Below, in pieces: positions 10,952 to 20,728 of a stretch of 64,000 nt of DNA (position 1 is its first letter; the number at the start of each line of letters is the position of its first letter). This stretch comes from Ferrimonas futtsuensis DSM 18154 (GTDB lineage: Bacteria > Pseudomonadota > Gammaproteobacteria > Enterobacterales > Shewanellaceae). Under the pieces are notes generated by a model. The model was not told the DNA's origin. It did no database searches and saw nothing but the letters and a program-made list of their open reading frames with translations. The position numbers and the translations under genes are program-made. The stretch covers positions 191,461-255,460 of the forward strand of contig NZ_KE383896.1 in the NCBI RefSeq assembly GCF_000422645.1, in the 5' to 3' direction.

Positions 10952-12367
10952 ATGACGAAGAATTCAGATGGATGCATAACGATGAGGGGTTTACTGGCTG
11001 TATCGCTGCTGACCCTGGCCGGATGCCTTCCGCTGGAGTATCAGCAGCCTCAGCGAGCCGAGCCCGAACCTGACCGACCCCTGAGGGTCGGCACCCTGTA
11101 TGGGCCCACCACCTATGTGGTGGGCGCTGCGGGTGCCCAGGGACTGGATTACGAACTGGCCCAGGGCTTCGCCCTGCATCTGGGTCAGGAGTTGGAGGTC
11201 ACCCCCTACTCGTCGCTGCCTGAGATGTTTAATGACATGAGCCAGGGCAAACTGGATCTCATCGCCTCCAGCCTCACCGACACCCACCTCAACCGCAGTT
11301 TCTGGCGTTTCGGCCCCCCCATCTACCGCACCAAGGTGCAACTGGTCTATCGCAGGGGGCAGCCCAAGCCCGACTCACTGGCCCAGCTTACTGACCCTCT
11401 GATGGTGATGGCCGGTTCCAACCACGCAGAGATACTGGCCGCCGAACAGCAGCGAAACCAACCCGGGCTGCAGTGGCAGGAGACCACCGAGTATGCCGCC
11501 CACGAACTGCTCTCCATGGTGGCCTCCGGCGAGCTGGCCTACACCCTGTCCGACACCAAGACCCTGGCAGCCAGCCGGCGACTGCACCCGGAACTGGCCG
11601 CTGCCTTCAGCCTGGGGATCGAGCAGGAGGTCGGCTGGGCCCTGCCGGAGGAGCACAGCCACCAACTCCTGTCCGAACTGCTGGACTACTGGGATAAACT
11701 GAAACAGGCCGGCACCCTGAAACAGCTGGAAGAGAAGTATTTCGGCCATATGGAACGGTTCGACTATGTCGATACCCGCGCCTTCATCCGGGCGGTGGAG
11801 ACCCGGTTGCCCAAGTACGAGCCCTGGTTCAAGGAGTACGCCGGAATCCTGGACTGGCGACAGCTGGCTGCCGTCGCCTATCAGGAGTCCCACTGGAACC
11901 CCAAGGCGCGCTCCCCCACTGGGGTTCGGGGATTGATGATGCTGACCCAGTCCACCGCCAAACGGGTTGGGGTCAGGGACAGGCTCAACCCTGAGCAGAG
12001 CATACGCGGCGGCAGCGACTACCTGCACGATCTGATCAAACGACTGCCCGCCTCCATCCCTGAGCCTGAACGGCTGTGGTTTGCCCTGGCCTCGTACAAC
12101 ATCGGCCTGGGCCATGTGGAGGATGCCCGGGTGATCGCCCAGCGTCATGGCCTCAACCCCAGCAGCTGGGCAGACGTCAAATCTGTCCTGCCCAAGCTGA
12201 CCCAAAAACGCCACTACCAGCGCACCCGCTACGGCTTTGCACAGGGTGGGGTCGCTGCCCACTATGTGGACAACATCAAGCGTTACTATGACACCCTGGT
12301 GCTGCTGGAAACCCATATGCCCCCCTCAACGGGAGCCCCCCTGGATCTGGCCAAGAATCGCGAGTGA
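10952..12367 (+). CDS. mltF: Membrane-bound lytic murein transglycosylase F
   Basis: An outer-membrane lipoprotein that cleaves peptidoglycan to 1,6-anhydromuropeptides. It has an N-terminal solute-binding-protein-like domain (about residues 42-270, including LRVGTLYGPTTY) and a C-terminal SLT domain with catalytic Glu312 in AYQESHWNPKARSPTGVRGL and the ASYNIGLGHVEDA motif. The lipobox LTLAGC follows a hydrophobic stretch. Two starts are possible: ATG 10952, or ATG 10982, which leaves the lipobox Cys at residue 15; neither has a strong ribosome-binding site and I lean to 10982 on signal-peptide grounds. The neighbours purL and tadA are the usual ones for mltF in this group. Confidence 0.95.
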   Translation: MTKNSDGCITMRGLLAVSLLTLAGCLPLEYQQPQRAEPEPDRPLRVGTLYGPTTYVVGAAGAQGLDYELAQGFALHLGQELEVTPYSSLPEMFNDMSQGKLDLIASSLTDTHLNRSFWRFGPPIYRTKVQLVYRRGQPKPDSLAQLTDPLMVMAGSNHAEILAAEQQRNQPGLQWQETTEYAAHELLSMVASGELAYTLSDTKTLAASRRLHPELAAAFSLGIEQEVGWALPEEHSHQLLSELLDYWDKLKQAGTLKQLEEKYFGHMERFDYVDTRAFIRAVETRLPKYEPWFKEYAGILDWRQLAAVAYQESHWNPKARSPTGVRGLMMLTQSTAKRVGVRDRLNPEQSIRGGSDYLHDLIKRLPASIPEPERLWFALASYNIGLGHVEDARVIAQRHGLNPSSWADVKSVLPKLTQKRHYQRTRYGFAQGGVAAHYVDNIKRYYDTLVLLETHMPPSTGAPLDLAKNRE

Positions 12368-12474
12368 TCTGGCTCAGCTTTCACCACGTTCACCAAAATA
12401 TTTCTGTTAATGGCCCAGCTTTTCCAGGCGCCAGGGGTTGAAATTGCCAAGAGTCATAGCTATCTCTTATATCA

Positions 12475-12508
12475 GGGGACAAATCAAAGGTTTGTCCCTT
12501 GGTTTTTA
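12475..12508 (+). terminator. Probable terminator downstream of mltF
   Basis: Inverted repeat GGGACAAA / TTTGTCCC with a seven-base loop, followed by TTGGTTTTT, about 110 bases after the mltF stop. The rest of 12368-12668 holds no gene that I can support; its last 130 bases should contain the promoter of the small ORF at 12669. Confidence 0.65.
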
Positions 12509-12668
12509 GGGGCATAGATGCCGCCATCCCAAATTTAGTTTAAACAGTGAACGAGATCGGGCGCCTTTGGGAACAAAAGTCGCAACAAAAGCTCAAAACC
12601 GATGTCATCGAACTGCAAACAGATGAGGATAGGGTCCAAATAGAGAAAACAGTAAGGAGGAGAGAGGA

Positions 12669-13534
<866 letters not shown>

Positions 13535-14341
13535 ATGTCCCGCATAGAGCCAGAGGATAAGGCAACCTCTTCGGGGGTCGCAGAGGTGCTCAGTTCTCCC
13601 CTCTCTGCCCATTGGAAAAGAGCGAAATCCGGATTTCTTTACCTAATCGCCCTGATGATTGGCTTCGGTAACTGGAACGATACCAAAGAACTGTCCTACA
13701 CCATCTTCCAGGGTATCCAGGCAAATTTCACCCATCACGTCGAAGAGCGGCTCCTGAATAAGATCGATGTCGGAAACTATCTTGCCTACGTGGAGCAGGA
13801 CCTCGGCTTCCCACAAGTCGTAAAACGCTCCCGGACCAAGGATGGGTTGGAGTTCCGCTACTACAAGAAAAATAAGTTCCTACTTACCCTATTGGTTAAA
13901 GGAGGGAGAATCAGCGGATACCTGGTACAAACATTGGATTATCAGGGGCTGTACAGTCAGCTATCAGCGTTCTCACCTGCCATCCCCTTCAGTGACAAAC
14001 AGTTGAACCTGGATAGCTATACCCACTCCTTCTCCCAATCAGACAAGTTTCAGCTTGATGACTTCAATCTGGTCTACTACATGGAACCTCACCCCCTTGG
14101 CGCCAAAGGCATGTATACCACGCTCTACTTAGGCACTGTGGAGTACGGTGTTGCCCCAGGTAGTCTGGTTGAACGAGTTAGAGAAATCGCTGAGAAGCAG
14201 GTCCACGGCGAGGCGTCCACCCAACAAATCAACCACCTCCGAGACCAGTTAAAGCCCAACATGTACGGGATAGGTGAAGGCGAGGAAGAGGTGATGGCCG
14301 AAGCTTTGCTGACCCGATACGAATACAACACCTATTTCTAA
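13535..14341 (+). CDS. ETEC_3214-domain membrane-anchored protein
   Basis: 268 residues. A single hydrophobic helix near residues 31-47 (FLYLIALMIGFG) follows a short cytoplasmic N-terminus and anchors a roughly 220-residue periplasmic domain with alternating Tyr/Phe-rich strands (LEFRYYKKNKFLLTLLVKGG; YSQLSAFSPAIPFSDKQLNLD). I associate it with the uncharacterised ETEC_3214 family; that assignment is from memory of the pattern and is moderate. AAAGGA lies about ten bases before the ATG. It is the first of five genes read in one direction with gaps of 12-26 bases. The following genes encode exported lipoproteins and a muramidase, so a role in an envelope complex is inferred. Confidence 0.6.
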   Translation: MSRIEPEDKATSSGVAEVLSSPLSAHWKRAKSGFLYLIALMIGFGNWNDTKELSYTIFQGIQANFTHHVEERLLNKIDVGNYLAYVEQDLGFPQVVKRSRTKDGLEFRYYKKNKFLLTLLVKGGRISGYLVQTLDYQGLYSQLSAFSPAIPFSDKQLNLDSYTHSFSQSDKFQLDDFNLVYYMEPHPLGAKGMYTTLYLGTVEYGVAPGSLVERVREIAEKQVHGEASTQQINHLRDQLKPNMYGIGEGEEEVMAEALLTRYEYNTYF

Positions 14342-14355
14342 GCTGGAGCATTTCA

Positions 14356-15288
14356 ATGCCTATACGGATTACCACCTTTTTGCTGATCCTGACCGCCACC
14401 GCCTGTCGGGCTACCCCGCCCTCCTGGTACCTAGAACCCCCAAAAGACTCTGCCGATTACATCTATGGTGTCGGCGCTGGCATAAATCAGCAGGGCGCTC
14501 GCCACCAAGCACTAATGGATGTCACCAGTCGTCTTCAGGTCAAGGTTCAAGGAAGCCTTCACACTCAAACCCAGGTCATCAACGGGGCTGTAGCCAGCAG
14601 TGCCAACCAGCAGGTAAGAAGCGAAAGCTCAAGGCTAACCTTAACCAACTACGAACTGTATGATTCCGCACACAAAGACGGCACACACTATCAGCTGATT
14701 CGAGTTCAACGCGCAGCCTTGCTACAGGGGCTCAAGCAACAACTCACCCAAAAGTTGCTGGAGTTCGGCCGCTTGAGGACTCAACAAGCCTCTCCCCTAT
14801 TGGAACTGAAGGCACTGCTGGCACATGAACAGGATGCAACTTCAGCACGAAGCCTGATAGCCATTCTCCAGCAACAAAAACAGAGCCTCCCCGCCCTTGA
14901 TGATCTGCGCTGGTATGAACAACGCCTATTGGCGTCGAAAAACCACAGGGTGATCGCAATTGAGCTGGAGCAGGCCACTGAGCAAACCCATGAGTTCCTG
15001 AACCAATGGCTCAGCAATGCGGGTTTTCAGAGTTCGGGTCCCTCCCCTCTAGCCACGCTTAGATTCACCATACAACCTCAACCTGTACGAGAACTCTTTG
15101 GACAATTCCACGTCAGTGTGAAGGGCAAGTTCATTGTTGAAGATCAGGGAAAGGTTCTAAATGTAAAACGGCTGTCTGCGACCGGTGTCTCCTCTCTTAG
15201 CGGAGAGCAGGCAAAAGCGGTTGCAGAACGGCAAATGCTGAACCAGATCGCCGAAGAAGATATCTGGAAGCTTTTACTTTCAATATAA
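14356..15288 (+). CDS. LPP20-family (FlgP-like) predicted lipoprotein
   Basis: 310 residues. The signal sequence ends in LTATAC, a weak but acceptable lipobox (Cys17), followed by the LPP20 signature PPSWYLEPPKD and YIYGVGAG. The first 125 residues form the LPP20 domain (A-x-x-D-V-x-x-R-L-x-V-x-V-x-G). The rest is a helical stretch (about 130-200) and a second alpha/beta part. LPP20 proteins include FlgP, which builds outer-membrane rings around the flagellar motor in Vibrio and Campylobacter. There are no flagellar genes here. It lies 14 bases after the ETEC_3214-type gene. Confidence 0.75.
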   Translation: MPIRITTFLLILTATACRATPPSWYLEPPKDSADYIYGVGAGINQQGARHQALMDVTSRLQVKVQGSLHTQTQVINGAVASSANQQVRSESSRLTLTNYELYDSAHKDGTHYQLIRVQRAALLQGLKQQLTQKLLEFGRLRTQQASPLLELKALLAHEQDATSARSLIAILQQQKQSLPALDDLRWYEQRLLASKNHRVIAIELEQATEQTHEFLNQWLSNAGFQSSGPSPLATLRFTIQPQPVRELFGQFHVSVKGKFIVEDQGKVLNVKRLSATGVSSLSGEQAKAVAERQMLNQIAEEDIWKLLLSI

Positions 15289-15314
15289 ATGATGATGATA
15301 CAAGGAGAGTTATT

Positions 15315-16340
15315 ATGACCAGCAGGAAACCAAAGCTCACCACTGCCGTAATTGGGGCATTGATAATGACAGGCTGTGTTTCAACTGGCCCAAAAAGGGA
15401 GGTTATTACTTCACTTCCCAATATTCCCATCCAGGATACTGAATATATGCCAGCAAAGCTGCTGGATTCCAGTCAAAAGAAAGTCATTGTCATGCCTACC
15501 AAAGTCTCTGCAACTGGCGTGAACCAGGCAGCCATTCAGAGCCAGATCCAAGGACAAATCGAAAATTCTCTGGCTGGCGCAGGAATCTTTGCTGTGGATC
15601 GGGAATCGGCCAAGACACTAAAAGAAGAGCTACTTTTGGCCGAAACCACCGGAAAACTCAACTACGATGGCCCTCATGTTGCAGATTTCGCCATCTTCAG
15701 TACAGTCACTACGGCCAGTATCAGCACCAAACAGACTGATGGCGGAACAGATCTACTCACAGGAAAAGAAACCGGCCCGAAATGTGTTTACAACAGCAAA
15801 GTCTCCGGCCAGCTCCGCATCCTGTCCATTCCAGAATTAAATCAGGTAAACACAGCGGAAATGAAAGGCACCGATTCCAGTGTCGAAGCCTTTTATGGTC
15901 ATTGCTCTTTGACCAAGTCTAAGCACAGCGCCCTGCTCTCCAATGCCTCGGGCGACGCCGTAGAACACGCACAGACGGAAATTCGTAACTCTCTGGCCCC
16001 TATGGGCTATGTTATCGAGCGTCGCGGCAATCAATACGACAACGTATTCCGTGTCTCTCTTGGAGCTGCGAGAGGAGCCAAAGAGGGTGATTCAGTCGAA
16101 ATTAAACGTAAAAAAATCACCGCGTTGGGCAATGGAGAATCCATTACTGAGTTCGAAACCATTGCTCACGGTAAATTTACGGGCGCTATAGAACCGATGT
16201 TTTCCTGGATCGTACTTAATAAAAAAGAACAGCTGGAAATTATCCGTCGTGGAGACTTAGTGAAGCTCAAACATGAAGACAACATATTTGAGATGGCCGA
16301 CAAGGGCACCAAAGATCTGCGTGAAATGTTTAACCTCTAA
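15315..16340 (+). CDS. CsgG/FlgO-like outer-membrane lipoprotein
   Basis: 341 residues with lipobox IMTGC (Cys21). The mature N-terminal half starts a strand KKVIVMPTKV followed by an amphipathic helix and GAGIFAVDRESAKTLKEEL, the arrangement of the TolB-N/CsgG/FlgO-type nucleotide-binding-like fold found in secretion and ring lipoproteins. The C-terminal part (about 235-341) is beta-rich with GAARGAKEGDSVEIKRKK, resembling the C-terminal domain of FlgT-like proteins. Function is not known. Good ribosome-binding site (AAGGAGAG). Placed between two LPP20 genes, it probably co-assembles with their products at the outer membrane; this is inference. Confidence 0.6.
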   Translation: MTSRKPKLTTAVIGALIMTGCVSTGPKREVITSLPNIPIQDTEYMPAKLLDSSQKKVIVMPTKVSATGVNQAAIQSQIQGQIENSLAGAGIFAVDRESAKTLKEELLLAETTGKLNYDGPHVADFAIFSTVTTASISTKQTDGGTDLLTGKETGPKCVYNSKVSGQLRILSIPELNQVNTAEMKGTDSSVEAFYGHCSLTKSKHSALLSNASGDAVEHAQTEIRNSLAPMGYVIERRGNQYDNVFRVSLGAARGAKEGDSVEIKRKKITALGNGESITEFETIAHGKFTGAIEPMFSWIVLNKKEQLEIIRRGDLVKLKHEDNIFEMADKGTKDLREMFNL

Positions 16341-16352
16341 GAGAGCGAAACT

Positions 16353-16925
16353 ATGAAGAAATTTTTACCTGTAATAGCGATTACTCTGGTAACTGGCTGC
16401 TCATCCACACCGGAACCCATCACCATGGCATGCACCTTCCCGGACTCACCCGAGGTGGAAGCCCCCACGTGGGTGTGTGATGAAGGCATAGACAACTACG
16501 CCCTGACCGCCGTGGGTTACGCAAATAAGTCTGCCGCCGGTGTCGGCTTTATGAAGGATGTCGCCAGTTCCGAAGCACGGGTTCAACTGGCCAAGACCTT
16601 CCAGTCCAACATCTCAGCCAAGCTGAATGACGCTGTAGTCGCCAATAATGTCGATGCCAGTGGCGAGGTCAAGCAGCTCATCGAAAAGGCGGCTTCCAGC
16701 ATCACTCAGCAGACCCTGTCCGGCGCCCGCATCATTAAGTCTCGAACTAGCCCTAGCGGCGCCCTATATGTCTTGGTAGGCATGAGTAATGCCGACTATC
16801 AACGGACCATGCGCACCGCTCTGGAAGCCAGTAAAGATCGAGATGCCGAGCTTTGGCAAAGGTTCAAGGAGGAAAAGGCAGATAAGGTGCTCAATGCCCT
16901 ACTGGTCAACACAACTGCCCTTTAA
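16353..16925 (+). CDS. LPP20-family lipoprotein (second copy)
   Basis: 190 residues. Clear lipobox LVTGC (Cys16) after MKKFLPVIAIT. The LPP20 core follows: PTWVCDEG, YALTAVGYANKSAAG, and an A-x-x-E-A-R-V-Q-L-A-K helix, then a long central helix and a final strand SGALYVLVGMSN. Two extra cysteines (TMACTF and WVCDEG) could pair. It is shorter than the first LPP20 protein of the operon and lacks its C-terminal extension. The stop lies 17 bases before the transglycosylase gene. Confidence 0.8.
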   Translation: MKKFLPVIAITLVTGCSSTPEPITMACTFPDSPEVEAPTWVCDEGIDNYALTAVGYANKSAAGVGFMKDVASSEARVQLAKTFQSNISAKLNDAVVANNVDASGEVKQLIEKAASSITQQTLSGARIIKSRTSPSGALYVLVGMSNADYQRTMRTALEASKDRDAELWQRFKEEKADKVLNALLVNTTAL

Positions 16926-16942
16926 TTTCTTAGGAGAAACTC

Positions 16943-18241
16943 ATGAAGAGAAGCAACACGGCTGCCAGCAGTACCCTGCTGGTAGCAGTGTTGCTTGTGG
17001 GTCCGGCGCCAGCCTCTCAGGAACTGGCGGAGTTTGAGGCCTTCAAGCAACAGACTATGTCGGAGTTTGAACAATACAAAGCTGATTATCTTGATCAATT
17101 TGATCAGCATCGTCAGGAATTGATGAAACTCTGGGGTCGGCCATTGCAAAGTGATGCCGACACCTACGTCAACTACAGCAATGACCTCACTCAACGCACT
17201 GTCGTGGATTTCTCCAACGATACCATCGAGATCAGTGTCATCCATGAACCTGGCTCTGCTCCCCCGCTGGACCAGGCAGTCGCCCGCCTTCAGCAAATCT
17301 CGACCCCCGAAAACCAGATGCCAGAACAAGCAGAGGCTCCTTTGGTGCGACTGTCAGTTTCGGCAGAAGAATATCTGAAACCGGTTACTCCTGAACACTC
17401 ATCACTATCCTATAGTGCTCAGGCAGAAAAGGAGCAAGAGAAGCTCATCAGCCAGCAACATCAGCAGGCGCTGGTAGCCATAGAAAAAAGGGCGGATCTG
17501 GCCATTATCAGTGGCTCAGACGAAGCCAAAGTGGAATCGCAACTGGACAGGGAGAGGAAAAGGATAAAAGCCCATGAAATGGAGCGCCTGGCCCGCCTCA
17601 AGGCACAATACAGTCAGCAAATGCGTCACGATCCGAGCTCAAAGGTCGTCACCACCTACAAGGTCACCCTCCCTAATAAGCAGATAGCCAGTAAGGCCAA
17701 ACCCTATCTGGCCTCAGTCAAATCAGAGTCAGAACGATGGCACGTTGCACCAGAGCTTATCTTCGCCATCATGAAAGCGGAAAGCAGCTTTAACCCAAGG
17801 GCGAAATCTCATATCCCTGCTTTTGGTCTAATGCAAATTGTACCGTCGAGCGCGGGAAAAGACGTCAACGACAAACTGCTGAGTCGTCACGGCAAGCCCA
17901 GTGAATATCAGTTGTTCCAGCCTTCTGAGAACATTCAGTATGGCACAGCCTATCTGCACCTGTTGTACGACAAATACCTTGCTAGAATAGAAGATCCTAA
18001 GGCCAGACTGTACTGCACCATAGCCGCTTATAATACCGGCCCAGGAAACGTGGCCAGGGCTTTCAACCCCGATCGAAGCCGAAACATCCTTAAAGCTGCA
18101 CCCATCATCAATCAATTGTCATCAGTGGAGGTATTCGACCGACTAAAGGGCTTCCTGCCCTATGATGAAACTAAGGTTTACCTGGACAGAGTCGTCGACT
18201 ACCACGAAGAATTTGCCACACTTAAAGGTGAGATCTTATAG
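16943..18241 (+). CDS. MltC-like lytic murein transglycosylase
   Basis: 432 residues. Residues 1-25 are a type I signal peptide (APAS cut before Q) with no lipobox Cys, unlike canonical MltC, so the enzyme should be free in the periplasm. Residues about 27-100 match the MltC N-terminal domain (DTYVNYSNDLTQRTVVDF). A charged helical insert (about 155-230) follows, then the SLT domain with catalytic Glu280 in IMKAESSFNP, then AFGLMQIVP and IAAYNTGPGNVARAF. It would cut glycan strands, possibly to open the wall for the complex encoded by the preceding four genes. Last gene of the operon; a hairpin (18248-18270) lies after it. Confidence 0.88.
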   Translation: MKRSNTAASSTLLVAVLLVGPAPASQELAEFEAFKQQTMSEFEQYKADYLDQFDQHRQELMKLWGRPLQSDADTYVNYSNDLTQRTVVDFSNDTIEISVIHEPGSAPPLDQAVARLQQISTPENQMPEQAEAPLVRLSVSAEEYLKPVTPEHSSLSYSAQAEKEQEKLISQQHQQALVAIEKRADLAIISGSDEAKVESQLDRERKRIKAHEMERLARLKAQYSQQMRHDPSSKVVTTYKVTLPNKQIASKAKPYLASVKSESERWHVAPELIFAIMKAESSFNPRAKSHIPAFGLMQIVPSSAGKDVNDKLLSRHGKPSEYQLFQPSENIQYGTAYLHLLYDKYLARIEDPKARLYCTIAAYNTGPGNVARAFNPDRSRNILKAAPIINQLSSVEVFDRLKGFLPYDETKVYLDRVVDYHEEFATLKGEIL

Positions 18242-18256
18242 CCCCTAGGCAGCCCC

Positions 18257-18622
18257 TCAGGCGGGCTGCCACAGCTCCACCTTGTTACCCTCGGGATCGA
18301 CAAACCAGCCAAACTGCCCATAGGACTCCTTGACGACCTCACCCACCAGGGTCGCCCCACCGGCTTCCACCTGAGCCAGGGCTGCGGGCAGATCATCCAC
18401 CACCAGGTTGAACATGAAGGGGCGATCCGATGGCTGGAAGTACTCGGTATCGTCACCGAACGGGCACCATACCGTCAGGCCATTCTGTGGCATGCTGGCT
18501 GGTGAAAAATCGGCACCGTACTCGCCCACCTCCATCCCCAGATGATCCCGGTACCACTGTCCCAACAGCTTGGGGTTCTGACTCTTGAAGAAGATCCCCC
18601 CCACTCCCATTACCTTCGCCAT
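18257..18622 (-). CDS. VOC (glyoxalase/bleomycin-resistance) family protein
   Basis: 121 residues with the paired beta-alpha-beta-beta-beta modules of the vicinal-oxygen-chelate fold: GIFFKSQNPKLLGQWYRDHL in the first half and FNLVVDDLPAALAQVEAGG, then FVDPEGNKVELWQP in the second. Glu in VELWQ and the early His/Gln positions are candidate metal ligands. The substrate is unknown. The start at 18622 follows AGGAG; an in-frame start 18 bases earlier would overlap the ABC permease gene. It lies just downstream of the ABC permease, in the same direction, and may be co-transcribed. Confidence 0.85.
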   Translation of the reverse strand: MAKVMGVGGIFFKSQNPKLLGQWYRDHLGMEVGEYGADFSPASMPQNGLTVWCPFGDDTEYFQPSDRPFMFNLVVDDLPAALAQVEAGGATLVGEVVKESYGQFGWFVDPEGNKVELWQPA

Positions 18623-18630
18623 AGACTCTC

Positions 18631-19614
18631 CTAGTTCCAACGAAAAAGTCGTGCGCCAACGAATATCGCCACGGCCGATATCACGATCAGAGCCAGCCAG
18701 TGTGGCAGCAATCCGCCGATCCCAACTCCGTCAATAATAATGGCACGGCTGGCGGCATTGAGGTGGGAGAGCGGCAGCAGGCTGGCCAGGGACTGAATCC
18801 AGGGCGCGGTGCCCTCCAGGGAGAACCACACCCCGGACAGGAACATCATCGGCCAGGCGATCAGGTTCAGCACCCCGTTGCCAAACTCCTCTGAACGGGT
18901 TCGACAGGCCACCAGCAATCCGATGCTGACCAGGGAGAGTGCCCCCAATAGGGCGGTCACAAACAACAGAATCAGGCTGCCATTGATGGGAATGGAGAAC
19001 ATCAGGGTGCAGGCAACAAACACCAGGGTGGCGGTGGCCATCATCAGCAGCAATCGGCTGCAGATCTGAGACAGAATGAAGATCCAGGGCTTCATCGGCG
19101 TCGCCTGATAGCGTTTAAGTACGCCATTCTTTCGGTATCTGACGATGACATAGCCCACCCCATACAAGCCGGAAAACATCATGTTCATGCCGATGACCCC
19201 AGGCATCAGCCAGTCGATGTAGCGCACCGCCTCCCCCTGAACCTGGGTCGCCGGCAGCTCCCCCACCTCCGCCTTGAGAATCCGCTCCGCCAGATAGCCC
19301 TTCATGGAGTCCGGGTTCACCACGTACCCCTGCTCGATCAGCAGCAAATCCAGCTGATGACGTCCCACCTTGGTCCGGGCCAGCGTTTCATCCTCGTAGG
19401 GGATCAGTTGCAGATAACGGGTCTGTTTCAGGGTGTCCAGATAGGCTGGCTGCCCCACCACCCCCAACTTGTACTCAGGTTTGTCGGTATCGGAAAAGGC
19501 GATGCCGAAACCGACGATCAGCATCAGGGGAAACATCAGACTCCAACCCAGGGCGGACCTGTCCCGGACAAACTCCAGGTTACGGGCATGGATCAGTGCC
19601 AGCAGACTGCGCAT
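18631..19614 (-). CDS. ABC-2 type transporter permease
   Basis: 327 residues. One N-terminal membrane helix (about 22-42), a periplasmic domain of about 130 residues, then five helices; PGVIGMNMMFSGLYGVGYVIVRYR and the ending LNAASRAIIIDGVG are typical of the YhhJ/YadH-like ABC-2 exporters. It forms the membrane part of an exporter with the ATPase encoded two bases upstream. GAGGAG precedes ATG 19614. The cargo (drug, lipid or other) cannot be inferred from this sequence. Confidence 0.9.
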   Translation of the reverse strand: MRSLLALIHARNLEFVRDRSALGWSLMFPLMLIVGFGIAFSDTDKPEYKLGVVGQPAYLDTLKQTRYLQLIPYEDETLARTKVGRHQLDLLLIEQGYVVNPDSMKGYLAERILKAEVGELPATQVQGEAVRYIDWLMPGVIGMNMMFSGLYGVGYVIVRYRKNGVLKRYQATPMKPWIFILSQICSRLLLMMATATLVFVACTLMFSIPINGSLILLFVTALLGALSLVSIGLLVACRTRSEEFGNGVLNLIAWPMMFLSGVWFSLEGTAPWIQSLASLLPLSHLNAASRAIIIDGVGIGGLLPHWLALIVISAVAIFVGARLFRWN

Positions 19615-19616
19615 GG

Positions 19617-20543
19617 TCAGCTCCTCAATTGATGTCCGGTGAGTTTCAGGAAAAGGTCTTCCAGGTTGGGGCGGCGAATGTTGAGGCCGGTAATGTCGAC
19701 ATTGCGGCGTTGCAACTCACTGAGCACCTGATTGACATCATCGGTGTGATACTCCTGGCGACCGTTGCGCTTGAGCCAGGGCTTGGCCCAGCTCTCCCCC
19801 AGTTGCAACTCGGCAGGCAGGCTCAGCAAACGGGCACAAAACTCCTGCTCAATCAGCCTCAGGGGCGTATCCTCACGCAGTACCCGGCCATGGTCCATGA
19901 TGGCGATGCGATCGCACAACTGCTCCGCCTCGTCCATGTAATGGGTGGTCAGCAGTATGGTGGTTCCCGTGTCCCTGACCGTGCGGATCAGCGACCAGAA
20001 ATTGTGCCTGGCCTGAGGATCCAGGCCGGTGGTGGGCTCGTCCAGGAACAGCAGCCGAGGCCGGTTGATCAGCGCCAGGGCGAGCAGCAATCGCTGCCGC
20101 TGCCCTCCGGACAAGGTCTGGTGGCGCTGCTCAAGAAGCTCCTCCAGCCGGCAGACCCGAACCAGGTCCTCCCGTTCCCAGGTGGTGTGATAGAGGCTGG
20201 CAAACAGGGTCAGGCAGTCGCTGACGGACAGGTGCTCCGGCAATGCCGTCGCCTGGAACTGGATGCCGATCTGCTGACGGTAGTCCCCCTTCAGGGGCTC
20301 GCCATCGAACAGGATTTCACCGGATGTCGGCGGTAAAATGCCCTCCAGCATCTCCAAAGTGGTGGATTTCCCCGCACCGTTTGGACCCAGAAGACCGAAA
20401 CACTCCCCCTCCCCCAGCGCCAAGCTCAGGCGGTCCACGGCGGTGAGATCGCCAAATCGTTTCACTAAATTTCGAGCTTGCAGCAAATTTGGTGGGTTTT
20501 GTGCCCTGGTTCTCTCCTGCACAAGCCACTCCTTGACTTCCAT
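19617..20543 (-). CDS. ABC transporter ATP-binding protein
   Basis: 308 residues from the chosen start. Walker A GPNGAGKST, signature LSGGQRQRL, Walker B LLFLDEPTTGLDPQ and the H-loop TTHYMDEAE are intact, as in the CcmA/YadG class of ABC-2 exporter ATPases. A long C-terminal part (about 215-308) is present, as usual for these. The start at 20543 (MEVKEWLVQERTRA) follows AGGGAA; the frame stays open 57 codons upstream, but that stretch crosses a terminator and repeats and is not protein-like. Confidence 0.93.
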   Translation of the reverse strand: MEVKEWLVQERTRAQNPPNLLQARNLVKRFGDLTAVDRLSLALGEGECFGLLGPNGAGKSTTLEMLEGILPPTSGEILFDGEPLKGDYRQQIGIQFQATALPEHLSVSDCLTLFASLYHTTWEREDLVRVCRLEELLEQRHQTLSGGQRQRLLLALALINRPRLLFLDEPTTGLDPQARHNFWSLIRTVRDTGTTILLTTHYMDEAEQLCDRIAIMDHGRVLREDTPLRLIEQEFCARLLSLPAELQLGESWAKPWLKRNGRQEYHTDDVNQVLSELQRRNVDITGLNIRRPNLEDLFLKLTGHQLRS

Positions 20544-20645
20544 TTTCCCTAGAGCATTAAATGCAGAAAAACGGCTGGCTTGCAATGAACCCTTTGGGGG
20601 CCTTTGTGGGCATGTAAGATGAAGACAGGCCGTATCGCTCCAACG

Positions 20646-20728
20646 TGAGCCAAACCTGTGTGCTGACCCGGCCTTGCCGGGCTGATAGAAAAAAGGCTCA
20701 TCAAAATGAGCCAAACGTGTGTGCTAAC
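20646..20728. repeat. Pair of 22-base direct repeats
   Basis: TGAGCCAAACCTGTGTGCTGAC (split here as TGAGCCAAAC + CTGTGTGCTGAC) at 20646-20667 recurs at 20707-20728 with two mismatches, 61 bases apart. The copies flank a terminator hairpin. They could be operator sites for a regulator of the ABC exporter or the remnant of a small local duplication. Confidence 0.55.
20690..20712 (-). terminator. Terminator for the lutABC transcript
   Basis: Stem GGCTCAT / ATGAGCC with a CAAA loop; on the minus strand it is followed by six T. It lies about 180 bases after the lutC stop and before the ABC ATPase gene. Confidence 0.75.

Follow-up and report, generated by a model that had tools for sequence, protein, structure and literature searches.

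The window analysed here is a stretch of 64,000 nucleotides from Ferrimonas futtsuensis DSM 18154 (contig NZ_KE383896.1, positions 191,461 to 255,460 of the forward strand), and our subject is a five-gene operon at window positions 13535-18241. Five open reading frames (ORFs) lie on the plus strand and encode proteins of 268, 310, 341, 190 and 432 amino acids, separated by 14, 26, 12 and 17 bp. We refer to the five families, in gene order, as ETEC_3214, LPA, CSG, LPB and SLT. The set sits on an inserted cassette and is mobile, and in related genomes part of it is replaced as a block beside a usual core. The features are as follows.

13293..18256, no strand: inserted cassette, 4,964 bp in the window against 57 bp in the relative G011
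13304..13534, plus strand: presumed promoter region of the operon, AT-rich (33% guanine plus cytosine, GC), with one sigma-70-like site at 13459-13488
13535..14341, plus strand: protein 1, ETEC_3214-domain protein, 268 amino acids; short N-terminus, transmembrane helix at about residues 33-53 (by eye), then the domain
14356..15288, plus strand: protein 2 (LPA), larger LPP20 protein, 310 amino acids; N-terminal LPP20 domain and a C-terminal part
15315..16340, plus strand: protein 3 (CSG), FlgT-like lipoprotein, 341 amino acids; lacks the FlgT N-domain, FlgT C-terminal-like part at about residues 240-318
16353..16925, plus strand: protein 4 (LPB), small LPP20 lipoprotein, 190 amino acids; Pfam LPP20
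16943..18241, plus strand: protein 5 (SLT), lytic transglycosylase, 432 amino acids; MltC-type catalytic domain, preceded by a long, distinct N-terminal region
17780-17782, plus strand: codon of Glu280 of protein 5, presumed catalytic residue

All five genes are under purifying selection when compared with G012, the closest carrier of the same genus examined: the ratio of non-synonymous to synonymous substitution rates is about 0.03-0.13 and the changes fall mostly at the third codon position. This codon-position pattern rules out a frame artefact as the explanation of the five ORFs. Export signals were assessed by eye. Proteins 3 and 4 have a lipobox, protein 2 has a weaker one (alanine at -3), protein 5 has a signal peptide without a lipobox and protein 1 has an N-terminal transmembrane helix. 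An original prediction, made from the letters alone, had described tightly spaced genes, each with an export or membrane signal and with no flagellar, curli or secretion genes nearby. The spacing, the shared strand and the signals agree with this, and the last part holds for ORFs of at least 80 amino acids around 10952-20714, nine of which were family-searched.

The five-gene set is a mobile, horizontally exchanged unit. When the window was compared with G011 by blastn, the flanks were 89.8% and 88.1% identical and no matching cassette lay between them. The operon has a GC content of 50.3%, against 58.8% for the window, and fills the two lowest of its 32 two-kilobase bins. The site beside tadA was compared in 14 genomes of the genus: three carry the window type (G000, G005, G012), one a larger version (G007) and two a three-gene ETEC_3214-LPB-SLT version (G004, G013). 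The ORFs of G004, G007 and G013 were read by strand, as longer antisense ORFs overlie the genes at these high-GC loci. In the other eight genomes the roughly 1.5 kb next to tadA contained no match to the window’s ETEC_3214, LPA or SLT proteins, the mltF-like gene excepted; in three of these (G011, G008, G002) the glyoxalase gene follows tadA, and one (G001) carries a larger version elsewhere in its genome. Plasmid searches returned two Pseudoalteromonas records for protein 1, seven records for protein 5, of which only the two Pseudoalteromonas ones cover 80% of the query, and no match for protein 3.

The genes also keep company well beyond the genus. A survey with the NCBIfam model NF043066 (ETEC_3214) gave 28 carriers among 394 genomes of the order, 2 among 143 of the class and 6 among 388 in a sample of the phylum, all six belonging to the same order. 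We read the surroundings of the gene in all 28 carriers of the order, the window included. SLT-family matches weaker than 1e-90, which correspond to the neighbouring mltF-like gene, were dropped, and because the LPA and LPB models match each other’s members, each ORF was assigned to the better-scoring model. In 24 of the 28 carriers, which come from several families, SLT, LPA and LPB all lie within 7 kb of ETEC_3214, with varying gene order; CSG is present in 13. Apart from the lone gene, 12 gene patterns were distinguished, and some of these differ from one another only in strand or in having LPA doubled or split. In two carriers (G259, G312) LPB, SLT and LPA are found together elsewhere in the genome. 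The original prediction had named a lack of co-occurrence outside close relatives as its own refuting test, and the linkage in 24 carriers answers that test in its favour. Given this linkage, the empty site in G011 and the block replacement described below, chance co-location and purely vertical inheritance are both rejected.

In reverse searches, CSG was found in 19 of the 394 genomes; five matches are short and partial and 14 are near full length, 13 of the latter at an ETEC_3214 locus and the remaining one in G329. LPA was found in 51 of 394 at E of 1e-6 or better. Of the 21 matches at 1e-40 or better, 20 are in ETEC_3214 carriers. As most strong matches are in carriers and many weaker ones lie beyond them, proteins with a weaker likeness to LPA are frequent outside the system. 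At L048:11730-12724 and L068:525-1504 two neighbouring ORFs share the LPA coding sequence between them, possibly through decay or sequencing error, and an LPA-type protein at L015:8084-8917 is publicly annotated as a TonB-dependent receptor, a label that looks wrong.

The usual core consists of the ETEC_3214 gene, the transglycosylase gene and the small LPP20 gene, LPB, and the remainder of the locus is exchanged as one block. We use types I to IV as working names, set by what fills this remainder. Type I has CSG (13 of 28 carriers). Type II has three further proteins of about 230, 375 and 450 amino acids (five of 28). Type III has a CsgG-like protein of about 360 amino acids, family-tested in one, and occurs in three of 28 and in the two Pseudoalteromonas plasmid records, whose counterparts are annotated CsgG/HfaB; the tested protein, from L055, scores 32.1 with Pfam CsgG against a cut-off of 20.8, covering profile positions 52-155 of 210. 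In type IV, also in three of 28, a caspase-domain protein is accompanied by a protein of about 220 amino acids. The caspase-domain proteins (L060:4111-5991, L062:13598-15535, L067:4415-6220) stand beside LPA, LPB, SLT and ETEC_3214, have conserved GHG and DSC motifs in all three loci and look exported by eye; the one from L060 is recognised by Pfam Peptidase_C14 and by the caspase model of PADLOC.

On a tree of the core proteins (ETEC_3214, SLT and LPB from 31 loci, three rows having long branches and four an unusual composition) the type labels need seven changes, where the minimum is four and shuffled labels average 14.8. The replacement can be followed directly in two loci of the same genus, L009 (type I) and L069 (type II). 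Their core proteins are 80-83% identical and their LPA proteins 22%. At the DNA level there is 73.7% identity from 26 bp before LPB through SLT, ETEC_3214 and the next downstream gene, while the block on the LPA side is unmatched. A 5.4-kb stretch that precedes the operon in L009 follows it in L069, the wider neighbourhood being shared and rearranged. Relative to the core, then, the block has been replaced, either through local exchange or through a rearrangement that ends at LPB.

Type II-like lipoprotein blocks with LPA were also seen at L125:3672-9886, L126:4469-10121 and L128:3622-9877, grouped by eye and by family alignment, with no transglycosylase or ETEC_3214 gene nearby; the block therefore also exists alone. 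At L124:8165-11598 and L129:7242-10280 an LPA-like protein is encoded with a short lipoprotein and a protein of 411-431 amino acids, labelled LpoB and TPR by eye. L124 has an LPB-like gene as well, and neither locus has a transglycosylase or ETEC_3214 gene nearby.

The kinships of the proteins were examined by family searches and by profile comparison with hhalign, for which signal peptides were removed and length outliers dropped (rows, for example: LpoB 29 to 27, FlgP 14 to 10, LPA 28 to 27, LPB 28 to 25). With signal peptides kept, many matches ran through the lipobox region, and those values were not used. The best probability in 228 shuffled-column comparisons was 2.4, and nine unrelated real families compared with seven queries (63 comparisons) gave at best 0.8.

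Protein 3 resembles flagellar FlgT, not CsgG, as judged by these profiles. Its closest named match is in Ferrimonas sediminicola (96% identity). The original label, CsgG/TolB-N-like, is not upheld by family search, as protein 3 has no match in Pfam or NCBIfam, Pfam CsgG included; curli CsgG against CSG falls outside the 40 best pairs by hhalign. FlgO against CSG has a probability of 1.7. FlgT against CSG reaches 81.4 over 258 columns, with CSG aligned to FlgT columns 149-433 and the N-domain outside the alignment, so that CSG lacks the full three-domain layout of FlgT. A FlgT hidden Markov model (HMM), built from 30 FlgT_M-matching proteins of the order and searched against the ORFs of the first locus set at E 0.01, found only two CSG proteins, mainly through their C-terminal part; these are the orthologues at L049 and L053 (whole-sequence E 2.4e-5 and 2.4e-4, best domain 6.4e-4 and 2.7e-3), and the window’s own CSG was not matched. 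In the split variant of G259 and G312 the same model picks up proteins of 514 and 528 amino acids at about 1e-9, by way of the N-domain, and Pfam FlgT_N is above its cut-off there. FlgT against the 375-amino-acid type II protein has a probability of 72.6. Solved structures gave no convincing match to the CSG family profile.

Proteins 2 and 4 both exceed the Pfam LPP20 cut-off of 25.9 bits, as originally predicted: LPA scores 36.1 over residues 22-117 and LPB 28.6. LPA is a probable outer-membrane lipoprotein, its lipobox being weak in the window protein. Among solved structures the LPA family profile matches 4kzs, named an LPP20 lipofamily protein, at E 8.8e-22, and the LPB family profile matches 5ok8, an LPP20 lipoprotein, at E 7e-8. 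We take 4kzs to be Helicobacter pylori HP1454 and 5ok8 to be HP1456. The operon encoding these two would then resemble ours in coding together a larger and a smaller LPP20 protein, as LPA and LPB; it differs in that we know of no transglycosylase or ETEC_3214 gene in it. One article names 5ok8 Lpp20, gives FlgP, Lpp20 and FlgT a common SHS2-like fold, describes rings formed by FlgP and FlgT and links ring formation in this family to an insertion after the fold’s helix (PMC12222027). A second article places HP1454 and HP1456 in one operon and reports that both interacted with FlgP in two-hybrid assays (PMC11756786). FlgT against LPA gave an hhalign probability of 20.6.

Protein 1 is an ETEC_3214-family protein, as proposed, scoring 163.3 bits with NF043066 against a cut-off of 35. 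Its domain has a possible BamE-like stretch at about residues 67-113. The BamE and ETEC_3214 families align with an hhalign probability of 59.6 over 46 columns, where no shuffled control exceeded 2.4. Pfam BamE matches three of 27 family members, at best with E 8.3e-5, the window protein being without a match, and CAP_assoc_N also matches three of 27, at best with 4e-4. The family profile gave no convincing match to solved structures. The namesake in enterotoxigenic E. coli, which shares the NCBIfam domain family with protein 1, is described as CfaD-activated and of unknown function (PMC5554520). It differs in its setting, with no LPP20 or SLT partner in the annotated 25 kb around the gene in E. 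coli H10407. A gene related to ETEC_3214 of G547 is present in 231 of 5426 complete E. coli genomes; the H10407 copy (L244:11986-12723) has IS66 elements, a GTPase gene and autotransporter remnants around it.

Protein 5 is presumably a soluble, periplasmic lytic transglycosylase. The prediction of an MltC-like enzyme stands for the catalytic part, and membership of MltC itself is not supported. The SLT domain scores 95.9 bits in Pfam, and the family profile matches MltC structures at E 7e-70 or better (9vi7 at 5.9e-74, 4c5f at 3.9e-71), over profile positions 228-426 at most. E280 and S281 are invariant in 24 of 24 sequences, and we take Glu280 to be the catalytic residue. In contrast, the N-terminal part is weakly MltC-like (20.5 against a cut-off of 22.6), the score with the NCBIfam MltC equivalog is 168.8 bits against a cut-off of 375, and no lipobox was seen by eye in the window protein, a lipobox-like pattern matching one of 29 family members.

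A few features of the surroundings complete the description. The operon’s neighbours are mltF-like, tadA, glyoxalase and ABC transporter genes. The mltF-like gene (window 10952-12367, with solute-binding and SLT domains) is a second transglycosylase gene near the operon and belongs to the host backbone, because the empty-site relative G011 carries it too. Promoter-like matches in the region upstream of the operon are no more numerous than in shuffles.

We tentatively favour, at somewhat less than even confidence, the reading that the operon encodes a mobile, modular, non-flagellar trans-envelope assembly that combines a ring or collar, a wall opening and an inner-membrane anchor. LPA, LPB and CSG would be transported to the outer membrane and would oligomerise on its inner face into a ring or collar, by analogy with FlgP and FlgT at the flagellum. 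The dedicated transglycosylase would make or keep a local gap in the peptidoglycan. The ETEC_3214 protein, anchored in the inner membrane, would span this gap with its periplasmic domain, possibly BamE-like in part, and tie the inner membrane by physical contact to the outer-membrane parts, presumably to some benefit of the cell. LPA and the FlgT-, CsgG- or other-type proteins would be the outer or recognising block. A nearly constant core with block-wise swapping of these proteins is what would be expected if the block is the outer or recognising part. Like the Vibrio-type FlgO/FlgP/FlgT rings, the operon has LPP20 proteins, lipoprotein signals seen by eye and, in CSG, a protein aligning to FlgT behind its N-domain. 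It differs in lying away from flagellar genes, in the missing FlgT N-domain, in its linkage to a transglycosylase and an ETEC_3214 protein, and in existing besides the genome’s own flagellar-type set, which is on contig C19 and consists of a Pfam-identified FlgO and FlgT with, next to them, an LPP20 protein that we take for FlgP. The originally proposed kinship with FlgO/FlgP/FlgT gains support from sequence, through the CSG profile, the L049 and L053 matches and FlgT_N in G259 and G312. The prediction stands as to its list of parts and their co-occurrence, its ring or pore being a hypothesis; CsgG likeness of protein 3 and MltC membership are not supported.

Several observations weigh against such an assembly. 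The complete five are not always present, as the count for CSG shows. ETEC_3214 stands alone in the stretch read in two of the 28 carriers, G547 and G247, where LPA was not found genome-wide at E 1e-6, at most five candidates being scored. G004 and G013 have only the reduced set of ETEC_3214, LPB and SLT. G329 has SLT, LPB, CSG and LPA, and G406 has SLT, LPB and LPA, both without ETEC_3214. Outside the order, G111 has ETEC_3214 next to a transglycosylase only. The likeness to ring proteins is also uneven: FlgP against LPA is modest (hhalign probability 40.1), the similarity of FlgP to LPB vanished after signal-peptide trimming (1.7), and CSG and 12 aligned relatives, 13 proteins scanned, are without a Pfam FlgT match, so that the kinship is profile-based. 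Structure predictions from two sequences had a mean pLDDT (predicted local distance difference test) of 33 for protein 3 and 36 for protein 1 and were discarded. In the H. pylori study, deletion of HP1456 left motor and motility unchanged, the HP1454-HP1456 two-hybrid pair gave no interaction and HP1454 is described as secreted (PMC11756786). Because the motor is normal without HP1456 and the two proteins did not interact, LPP20 kinship is no proof of a ring.

The same parts could instead regulate peptidoglycan remodelling, with LpoB-like outer-membrane lipoproteins reaching through the wall to switch the transglycosylase on or off at places where cutting is called for, ETEC_3214 as the inner-membrane counterpart and no ring. 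We regard this as rather unlikely. The transglycosylase is among the most constant partners, LpoB compares well by hhalign to FlgO (89.5) and FlgT (82.9), and LpoB-type proteins turn up in related settings: in G045 and G210 Pfam LpoB matches are found some 1.4 kb away from LPA-like ones, a short lipoprotein that is LpoB-like by eye stands beside LPA, LPB and SLT in G406, and a type II-like lipoprotein of G259 matches the LpoB HMM at 1e-5. However, CSG resembles FlgT, LpoB against CSG is outside the 40 best trimmed pairs, the genome has its own LpoB elsewhere, and a pure regulator does not readily explain mobility and block replacement. Block replacement, a presence in a minority of genomes (28 of 394) and several versions at one place in the genus are consistent with an envelope guard against phages or neighbouring cells, whose exchangeable outer block would sense or block the attacker and whose effector would be the transglycosylase or, in type IV, the exported caspase with its GHG and DSC motifs. 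This too seems unlikely: the parts have no known toxic activity, inspection by eye alone picked out no known defence genes next to the loci, the five window proteins gave one weak match to known anti-phage systems in PADLOC (RmrT, E 0.021), and among ten variant-locus proteins the caspase alone matched. Distinctly unlikely, in our view, is a further reading, in which an unrecognised class of mobile modular envelope machine senses an outside target, such as a phage or neighbour, and answers by acting on its bearer’s own wall; a wall-cutting and inner-membrane core would then be combined with exchangeable FlgT-like, CsgG-like, multi-lipoprotein or caspase-bearing modules.

The type III loci suggest a curli-type (CsgG) conduit for export or secretion, in which the lipoproteins would make the outer-membrane pore. 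They have another protein in CSG’s place, and the L055 match and the CsgG/HfaB annotations of the two Pseudoalteromonas counterparts bear out the likeness. We consider such a conduit improbable, as the L055 match covers only part of the CsgG profile, the window’s protein 3 has no CsgG match and lies outside the best pairs with curli CsgG, and no substrate or chaperone gene was recognised by eye among the ORFs beside the window operon. Very improbable is a flagellar accessory encoded away from the flagellar genes, which would strengthen or protect the outer membrane around the flagellum. The H. pylori study, in which the LPP20-type proteins HP1454 and HP1456 interact with FlgP and FapH, speaks for it (PMC11756786). 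The patchy distribution and whole-block replacement are unlike a motor part, the genome has its separate FlgO/FlgP/FlgT set, and in E. coli H10407 the ETEC_3214 gene has island genes around it.

We found no description of this gene set in the literature listings searched, one of them being the best 15 of 521 matches and full texts lying outside the search. The component families are known; as far as that search reaches, their combination, mobility and block replacement are new. The operon supplies a genomic context for ETEC_3214, whose function is given as unknown in the single report located (PMC5554520). If a machine sensing outside targets were the correct reading, the outer rings of flagella would represent a single domesticated offshoot of these protein families. 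The natural block replacement shows which parts must work together and which are replaceable. The operon is a defined, cloneable set in which proteins of the flagellar-ring type are found apart from flagella and in the company of a dedicated wall-cutting enzyme, and the origin and other roles of FlgP/FlgT-type rings become testable in a small system.

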